Of a DNA stretch of 64,000 nucleotides, positions 7,913 through 9,243 are shown piece after piece (position 1 is the stretch's first letter; each line of letters starts with the position of its first letter). The position numbers and the translations under genes are program-made. A model generated the notes under the pieces. The model was not told the origin of the DNA. It did no database searches and was given only the letters and a program-made list of their open reading frames with translations. Location of the stretch: the NCBI GenBank assembly GCA_001563905.1, contig LKMO01000001.1, forward strand, positions 1-64,000, written 5' to 3'. The stretch is from Nanohaloarchaea archaeon B1-Br10_U2g19 (GTDB lineage: Archaea > Nanohalarchaeota > Nanosalinia > Nanosalinales > Nanosalinaceae).

Positions 7913-8089
7913 TCAAAACCGTTCATAAACGTTTCTGCGCTGTTTTTCGGGGTTTTCAGGTTTCCGGTTTATCTGCCGTATAATACTAGGAACAAGGTTT
8001 TCAGGATCCTCGCCTATGTAAAGTGCTTCTTCAGCGGCTTTACGCTCCTTTTTCGGCAGGTAGTCTAGAGACTTGGCGTATTCAACCAT
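7913..8089 (-). CDS. Tiny leaderless protein (58 aa), not in the ORF track
   Basis: A minus-strand frame from ATG 8089 gives MVEYAKSLDYLPKKERKAAE, EALYIGEDPENLVPSIIRQI, then NRKPENPEKQRRNVYERF and TGA. The first half looks helical and charged, the second basic and Pro-rich. A TATA box at 8113-8121 is centred 29 nt upstream, implying almost no leader. The plus-strand ORF 7883-8068 over it is a shadow rich in Phe and Leu. Function unknown. The position just downstream of orc1/cdc6, on the same strand with its own promoter, is the only clue. Confidence 0.6.
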   Translation of the reverse strand: MVEYAKSLDYLPKKERKAAEEALYIGEDPENLVPSIIRQINRKPENPEKQRRNVYERF

Positions 8090-8112: not shown

Positions 8113-8121
8113 GTTTATAAA
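8113..8121 (-). promoter_or_regulatory. TATA box of the 58-aa gene
   Basis: The minus strand reads TTTATAAACC, centred 29 nt before the ATG at 8089. It lies between that gene and the two TTCCG repeats downstream of orc1/cdc6. Confidence 0.5.
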
Positions 8122-8135
8122 GAAGCGGAGAAAGT

Positions 8136-8152
8136 TCCGTTAGTTCCGATAA
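8136..8152. repeat. Tandem TTCCGTTAG/TTCCGATAA repeats downstream of orc1/cdc6
   Basis: GTTCCGTTAGTTCCGATAA holds two tandem nonamers just beyond the stop codon of orc1/cdc6. They match the TTCCGGTAG and TTCCGCTAG units in front of the same gene. They could be initiator-binding sites or autoregulatory elements; only similarity and position support this. Confidence 0.45.
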
Positions 8153-8161
8153 AAAATAGTG

Positions 8162-9181
8162 CTATGACTGAAGCATATAGGTTCTCCAACGGCCTTCACC
8201 CTCGGAGTTAATCAGTCTGTAGTGGTCCATCTTACTCAGATACTTTCGGACCGTTCTCTTAACCTTGGGGTCTTCTACCTCATCACTGTACTCTTCGTAA
8301 AGTTCGCCTGGCTTGATCTCTCCATGCTCCTCAATTATTTCATAAAGCACGCTTTGATGTCTATTTAACTGATCTATAGATTTGGACTTGTTCTCCTCTT
8401 CAGCCGCAGGTAACGCATTTTCTATGACTTCTTGAGAGATTTCTTCAGACTCCTCTGCTTCAGCACGTTCTGCAGCAATTCTCAAAGCGTTTATAGCTAT
8501 TCTTGCATCTCCATCAGCTCTATTACCGATACGGTGAAGCATAGATTTCTCTACTGCGTTATCTCTTAAACCCCATTTAACGCGGTCTTCTAGGATATCT
8601 ACGAGCTGTTCTTTGGTGTATTCGGGAAACCGGACATGTTTGGTTCCTTCGAGAGAGGATCTTATACGGTCGTCAAAGTCGTATAAAGCAGTCTCTTTGT
8701 TGGCTATCATTATTAACGCGGTATTGCTTTCTCTGGCGAAGTCGTAAAGTATTCTTTCGTCTTCTATCTGGTCAACCTCGTCCAGTATGACTATGCTAGG
8801 TCTGTTCCCTACTTTTGATTTGAACTTGTCTACTAGTTCGTCTGTAGGTGTTCCTGTACGGTGTATGATATTGGTTCCGAAGTCTTGTAGCAGGTTGTAG
8901 TATACTTTGAACCGTGAGGGGTATCTCCAGCAGTTCACGCTTCCTGAGACAACGTTTGAGCTGTGTTTCTTTAGTTCGTCGACGACGTATTCTGCCATAG
9001 TTGTCTTTCCTGTTCCTGGAGGACCGTACAGAAGCATGTTTCTAGGTGTTCCATCGTCAAGTATAGGCTCTAAATTACGTTTTATCTCTGTTACCTGTGC
9101 GTTACGATGAACCATCCGTTTAGGTAGGAAGTCTGCGGTTAGTACACGTGCATCTTCTATTACGGTGTTTGGACGTCTCAC
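8162..9181 (-). CDS. orc1/cdc6: Orc1/Cdc6 replication initiator
   Basis: A 339-residue AAA+ initiator that marks replication origins and helps load MCM. Walker A GPPGTGKT is at 53-60 and Walker B VILDEVDQIED near 131. Sensor-like IANKE and the RIRSSLEG arginine-finger region follow, then sensor 2 GDARIAINALRIAAE, and a C-terminal winged helix from about 270 (LNRHQSVLYEIIEEHGEI). Slightly short for the family (about 380-410). TTCCGNTAG repeats lie on both sides, so the gene may adjoin an origin, as cdc6 often does in archaea. Confidence 0.95.
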   Translation of the reverse strand: MRRPNTVIEDARVLTADFLPKRMVHRNAQVTEIKRNLEPILDDGTPRNMLLYGPPGTGKTTMAEYVVDELKKHSSNVVSGSVNCWRYPSRFKVYYNLLQDFGTNIIHRTGTPTDELVDKFKSKVGNRPSIVILDEVDQIEDERILYDFARESNTALIMIANKETALYDFDDRIRSSLEGTKHVRFPEYTKEQLVDILEDRVKWGLRDNAVEKSMLHRIGNRADGDARIAINALRIAAERAEAEESEEISQEVIENALPAAEEENKSKSIDQLNRHQSVLYEIIEEHGEIKPGELYEEYSDEVEDPKVKRTVRKYLSKMDHYRLINSEGEGRWRTYMLQS

Positions 9182-9192
9182 GGAAAAACAGT

Positions 9193-9243
9193 ACTTCCGC
9201 TAGTTTAAAAGTGGAGACCTTGTTATTCCGGTAGTTCCGGTAG
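9193..9243. repeat. TTCCGCTAG and two tandem TTCCGGTAG repeats upstream of orc1/cdc6
   Basis: One unit (TTCCGCTAG) begins at 9195, and two head-to-tail units (TTCCGGTAGTTCCGGTAG) lie at 9226-9243. All point the same way and all lie between orc1/cdc6 and the next gene. Two related units lie past the gene's other end. A candidate initiator-binding or autoregulatory array. Confidence 0.5.

Follow-up and report, generated by a model that had tools for sequence, protein, structure and literature searches.

The window analysed here, 64,000 nucleotides from one end of contig LKMO01000001.1 of Nanohaloarchaea archaeon B1-Br10_U2g19, carries an orc1/cdc6 gene with a small gene downstream in the same direction, and the short flanks of orc1/cdc6 hold the five same-direction nonamers that an earlier note had pointed out. 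All five are present on the + strand, two tandem pairs with a 9-bp period among them (Table 1). The range given for the array, 8136-9243, is correct at its end and off by one at its start, the true first base being 8135. In the gene-ward reading each box is a copy of CTANCGGAA or a variant of it, and all but one of the five stand back to back in two pairs.

Table 1. Features at the orc1/cdc6 locus, in coordinates of the window
Feature	Position	Strand	Sequence or basis
Box	8135-8143	+	TTCCGTTAG
Box	8144-8152	+	TTCCGATAA
Box	9195-9203	+	TTCCGCTAG
Boxes	9226-9234, 9235-9243	+	TTCCGGTAG
orc1/cdc6 paralog, 339 aa, GTG start, arORC2-like	8162..9181	-	AAA+ ATPase, Cdc6 lid
Tandem operator pair (predicted) CTACCGGAACTACCGGAA, upstream of cdc6	9226..9243	-	sequence; kept in orthologs
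TTTTAAA, TATA box of cdc6	9204..9210	-	sequence, conserved
Single box CTAGCGGAA, directly 3' of TATA	9195..9203	-	cdc6 promoter only
Tandem operator pair (predicted) TTATCGGAACTAACGGAA, between cdc6 and next gene	8135..8152	-	sequence
TTTATAAA, TATA box of the 58-aa gene	8114..8121	-	13 bp from operator
Small gene, 58 aa, MVEYAKSLDYLPKKERK...	7913..8089	-	under second predicted operator

Frequency of the boxes

On its own, TTCCGNTAG is not rare in the window, since four copies are observed against 1.9 expected. All four exact copies lie inside 1.1 kb on one strand, and a same-strand cluster of this size never exceeded two copies in 300 Markov simulations of the window; back-to-back tandem pairs number two, against about 0.00015 expected. 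The cluster and its tandem pairs are far beyond chance.

The earlier note held that even scatter of the motif across the genome would speak against its reading, and here the outcome depends on the unit that is counted. The single motif occurs 28 times genome-wide, compared with 15 for the reversed control, and is therefore scattered, whereas the pair followed by a TATA box is not: this pattern is found at five distinct sites, of which four are promoters, and the reversed control gives none. Tandem pairs with up to two mismatches occur at only five places in the genome, four of them in promoters. Several matches were set aside: the tandem match at C2:8404 lies inside a coding region and is ascribed to chance, those at C6:12598 and C19:28842 are probably due to chance as well, and the sole match in relative G027 falls within a long open reading frame.

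Two successive promoters

The cdc6 promoter consists of CTACCGGAACTACCGGAA, 15 bp, TTTTAAA, CTAGCGGAA and the GTG, with CGGAA starting at -58 and -49 relative to the start codon; the TATA box is just 22 bp from the GTG, so the transcript is probably leaderless. Past the cdc6 stop codon come TTATCGGAACTAACGGAA, 13 bp, TTTATAAA, 24 bp and the ATG of the 58-aa gene, the match to the pair-plus-TATA pattern spanning 8115-8148. With a pair ahead of a TATA box on both sides of cdc6, the boxes are therefore read as belonging to two successive promoters that face the same way. The 58-aa protein gave no family match; counterparts of its gene are present in G001, G004, G007, G008, G013 and G014, directly downstream of cdc6 in close relatives.

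This layout is kept in orthologous loci whose Cdc6 is 73-84% identical and whose surrounding sequence differs. Comparison of the flanks in relatives, which the earlier note had proposed, thus found that the boxes keep their spacing to the TATA box both at cdc6 and at its neighbour. They occur on both flanks of cdc6 in G001, G007, G008, G013 and G004, one partner being degenerate in some; the downstream pair is kept as CTACCGGAACTAACGGAA in G001, and upstream of cdc6 in G014 the TATA-proximal box alone is retained. At the place of the single box, directly 3' of TATA in the cdc6 promoter, loci L020-L025 also have CTANCGGAA or a near variant. Its placement suggests that this single box may be an autorepression site.

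Further probable targets in nanohaloarchaea

The autoregulatory array that had been proposed as one reading of the repeats is thus well supported by boxes held in TATA register, and it can be widened into a regulon of several genes. The register CGGAA-N4-CGGAA-N13..15-TATA is found at both window sites and on contigs C27 and C25, giving four promoters in the 663 kb of this 80%-complete genome: those of cdc6 and the 58-aa gene in the window, that of a Zn-ribbon gene of 67 aa on C27, and that of an operon of three genes on C25. The latter encodes a RadA-like protein, a 90-aa protein starting with MGRT and a 697-aa B-family polymerase, and fits the published iRadA-PPB2-PolB2 translesion mutasome (PMC11791011). 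It is unlinked to cdc6, which lies on C14.

A strict pair is present at the iRadA promoter in 10 of 14 nanohaloarchaea, against a background of 3%, and three more have it at one mismatch; the G020 promoter has a poor match only. A CTACCGGAA box precedes the Zn-ribbon gene in all eight genomes that have it, and none was found at the promoters of the Zn-ribbon paralogs L127, L128 and L130. In relatives, the operator form also stands before PolB2 itself (G003), before a PD-(D/E)XK nuclease (G013) and before small proteins without known function. In G003, iRadA and PolB2 have separate operators (C1:671191 and C1:672926), as if the operon had been split into two controlled promoters. LAGLIDADG-type, homing-endonuclease-like proteins lie under the operator at G014:C52:2417, G004:C1:856086 and G004:C1:156862.

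The window-type cdc6 is found in all 14 genomes with iRadA (partial in G005) and in all eight with the Zn-ribbon gene; it adjoins iRadA-PPB2-PolB2 in G005, G016 and G017 and is near it in G018. Several relatives, such as G001 and G008, have cdc6 and the operator and no iRadA, and the 58-aa and Zn-ribbon genes are limited to a few genera. At G005:C3:677430-677897, next to iRadA, the C-terminal part of cdc6 alone is readable, through either a frame break in the assembly or decay of the gene.

A general promoter element, BRE-like or part of a strong-promoter sequence, would also keep a constant spacing ahead of TATA boxes, as these boxes always do. The counts disfavour it, with the pair at only four, functionally related promoters in 663 kb, and the box-less Zn-ribbon paralogs argue in the same direction; we give this explanation almost no weight.

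The same boxes on haloarchaeal plasmids

The boxes recur throughout the order at promoters of cdc6 and iRadA, and haloarchaeal megaplasmids share them. The closest plasmid-borne relatives of the window protein are haloarchaeal proteins of the 'Cdc6/Cdc18 family', about 45% identical over the full length. In all 15 haloarchaeal plasmid orthologs of cdc6, CGGAA is found at -49 to -59 from the start, and in 13 of the 15 it stands 14-16 bp before a TATA-like box, compared with a background of about 0.4%; the loci are related and their counts are not independent, L111, L116, L182, L185, L186 and L187 being well diverged. Because the sequences are related and were treated as independent, nominal p-values are too small. 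The Haladaptatus gene has its pair at -58/-49, identical to the position in the window.

Seven of these plasmid loci (L111, L116, L182 and L184-L187) have cdc6 within or adjoining an iRadA-PPB2-PolB2 cassette. The haloarchaeal gene further adjoins SRAP, an SOS-response-associated peptidase, in five loci and a PD-(D/E)XK nuclease in one. No CGGAA box was found at SRAP promoters in haloarchaea, and SRAP is therefore linked to cdc6 but probably not a target.

The window Cdc6 and a separate, initiator-type Cdc6

The window protein scores above the TIGR02928 cut-off, has intact Walker motifs (GPPGTGKT and LDEVDQ) and ends in a divergent winged helix, into which its alignment with 2v1u reaches; R331 and R333, which form an R-x-R wing, are invariant in eight relatives. 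An AlphaFold model built on four sequences is weak (mean pLDDT of 61), its C-terminal part (pLDDT of about 59-86) having the order of elements of a winged helix, and a PDB fold search recovered Orc1/Cdc6 structures with poor superposition. A scan of genome contigs returned three relatives only, and a scan of viral contigs returned none.

Another cdc6 of this genome lies on contig C32, and the NF001625 equivalog for ORC1-type initiators (cut-off of 501) separates the two, at 527 bits for the C32 protein versus 166 for that of the window. On sequence grounds the window protein resembles the non-initiator, arORC2 type, a subfamily name that we take over from PMC4104785, and a separate initiator-type cdc6 with origin-recognition boxes (ORBs) exists. 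These ORBs, TTTCCACAGGAAATCAGGGGG and relatives, lie upstream of the C32 gene at 2659, 2767 and 3008, around an AT-rich spacer. In G004, a relative with a complete genome, three ORBs are likewise located beside the other cdc6 (129325-129690). With its three ORBs and AT-rich DNA, and with the like arrangement in G004, the stretch at 2659-3030 of C32 (L004) is a probable chromosomal origin.

Archaeal initiator genes often adjoin origins, and the earlier note had offered as its other reading that the repeats are initiator-binding sites of an origin beside the window cdc6. We reject this reading, for an active as for a dormant origin, as highly improbable, since the ORBs are elsewhere. ORB repeats (TTTCCAN..GAAAN..GGGG) are absent from the window, as is an AT-rich unwinding region between the repeats, where spacers of just 91 and 72 bp are filled by promoter elements. 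The boxes are directional relative to TATA and recur at promoters far from any cdc6, on contigs without one, and cdc6 genes of Haloarcula hispanica that lack ORBs gave no ARS activity (PMC3528665). GC skew in G004, taken from 20 sampled stretches and too noisy to carry weight by itself, has no minimum at 764 kb, the place of the cdc6 ortholog, and a noisy low at 336-432 kb.

In favour of an origin, one clade of haloarchaeal plasmids has a second CGGAA pair at -151/-141 upstream of cdc6 (L113, L114, L190 and L191; L188 has a single CGGAA at -141), and an orc-adjacent origin was predicted on pNG600 (Wu et al. 2012, PMC3528665). The Cdc6 protein may therefore serve as the initiator of some plasmids in this clade.

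Which protein may bind the boxes

From sequence, the Cdc6-like protein whose gene lies between the boxes is the most likely regulator to act at them. The recognition region KRTVRKYLxKM[DE]HY and the R-x-R wing are common to the nanohaloarchaeal proteins and to several from haloarchaea that have CGGAA operators. In the single clade whose operator is CGGACA, KM[DE]HY...GRWR has changed to KMEAY, KMVDY or the like, with loss of the GRWR wing. This joint change is one event on the tree and is therefore consistent support, not repeated evidence; the correspondence is also loose, as G002 and the Halorussus-type clade combine CGGAA with another helix. Two members of the CGGACA clade have a second CGGACA pair before a possible Zn-ribbon-like small gene (G009:C1:498594 and G015:C1:341804; L154 and L160). 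Downstream of cdc6 in G006, G009 and G015 lies a conserved promoter with no clear gene behind it, which could make a small RNA.

Many archaeal regulators act at repeats near TATA boxes, and the boxes could be operators of a regulon bound by another winged-helix regulator, with Cdc6 as one of its targets and a role further downstream in repair or replication restart. The 58-aa gene and other small proteins, which are predicted targets too, could be that regulator. We consider a regulator other than Cdc6 unlikely. Throughout, from nanohaloarchaea to haloarchaeal plasmids, cdc6 is the only target that is always found, the 58-aa and Zn-ribbon genes having too narrow a distribution; the change of operator and that of the winged helix fall on one branch; and G010, which is 99% complete and has no window-type cdc6, has no promoter-type match. 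Moreover, an Orc1 paralog is already used in this way in Sulfolobales.

Discussion

We consider it probable that an arORC2-type, non-initiator Cdc6 controls its own gene together with a regulon for DNA damage and mutagenesis, similarly to Orc1-2 of Saccharolobus and through a different operator. In salt-loving archaea such control would be a counterpart, built on ORC, of the SOS response of bacteria. The winged helix of the paralog would bind CGGAA (predicted target CTANCGGAACTANCGGAA), and neighbouring AAA+ monomers would line up head to tail along the direct repeat of 9 bp. The position of the boxes suggests how they divide between activation and repression: bound about 14 bp upstream of TATA, Cdc6 would recruit or stabilize TBP/TFB and activate transcription, and the additional, unpaired box near the start of cdc6 would cap the synthesis of Cdc6 itself. 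To judge by the identity of the targets only, the trigger may be DNA damage or a stall in replication, which the AAA+ domain would sense by its ATP state in the way proposed for the Saccharolobus protein. Damage tolerance and mutagenesis would be the output of the regulon, and the other cdc6, beside the ORBs, would serve for initiation at the chromosome.

A broader proposal, for which we see the case as evenly balanced, is that salt-loving archaea have a master regulator of SOS type derived from ORC, in which one conserved CGGAA operator, often a 9-bp tandem and about 14 bp ahead of TATA, links arORC2 with the gene that encodes it and with the PolB2 mutasome, in nanohaloarchaea as in haloarchaea, and that damage control based on ORC is old and widespread beyond Sulfolobales. 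The regulon would also make transcription regulators of many 'extra' orc1/cdc6 genes, for which annotation usually gives a role as replication initiators. We know of no protein that regulates the DNA damage response in archaea other than Sulfolobales, and our literature search found none; in the open-licence literature we came across neither the CGGAA operator nor the regulon, and nothing on its occurrence in nanohaloarchaea. A concrete operator, a candidate regulator and a list of targets are now given, and they can be tested directly in haloarchaea that are amenable to genetics, whose cdc6 and iRadA-PPB2-PolB2 genes have the same boxes in front.

The nearest known system is Orc1-2 of Saccharolobus islandicus, a regulator of the DNA damage response that acts at the DDRE box ANTTTC, with ATP binding and hydrolysis as its switch (PMC9738581). 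The likeness covers a non-initiator Orc1/Cdc6 paralog with AAA+ domain and a winged helix with R-x-R wing, the presence of a box in the promoter of that paralog, and an initiator of its own, with ORBs, beside the regulator. A regulator of this type calls for an operator in its own promoter and in those of repair genes, and sequence conservation places one in both; PolB2 (Dpo2), damage-induced in Saccharolobus, is an operator-bearing gene here. The DDRE hexamer was not found as the operator of this regulon. Compared with what is described there, the conserved operator is CTANCGGAA, a 9-bp tandem 13-16 bp upstream of TATA and not ANTTTC, and the regulon is small, with its four promoters in an 80%-complete genome. 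Since the DDRE differs, we say that the system would work like Orc1-2 and assign no membership.

Bacterial LexA, whose gene adjoins PolB2 (PMC4104785, PMC11791011), offers a parallel from the SOS response, as a regulator that controls itself and a cassette with an error-prone polymerase through short boxes, as Cdc6 would here. LexA is of an unrelated protein family, however, and its boxes lie over the promoter, whereas those described here are upstream of TATA, as for an activator; no protease step is known for the Cdc6 system. Haloarchaeal ORB origins share with it Orc1/Cdc6 proteins that recognize repeated boxes near their own gene by a winged helix, but in this genome the ORBs are absent at the window cdc6 and present at the other.

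Finally, the linkage of arORC2 to PolB2 (arCOG07300) operons was described by Makarova et al. in 2014, who proposed a role in replication (PMC4104785), and the 2025 paper on the PolB2 mutasome found polB2 neighbourhoods enriched in orc1/cdc6 and hinted at regulation (PMC11791011). The same neighbourhood, with SRAP nearby, is seen here in haloarchaea and several nanohaloarchaea. Whereas those studies concern linkage only, the present analysis adds an operator, its register and further targets, also where the genes are unlinked.
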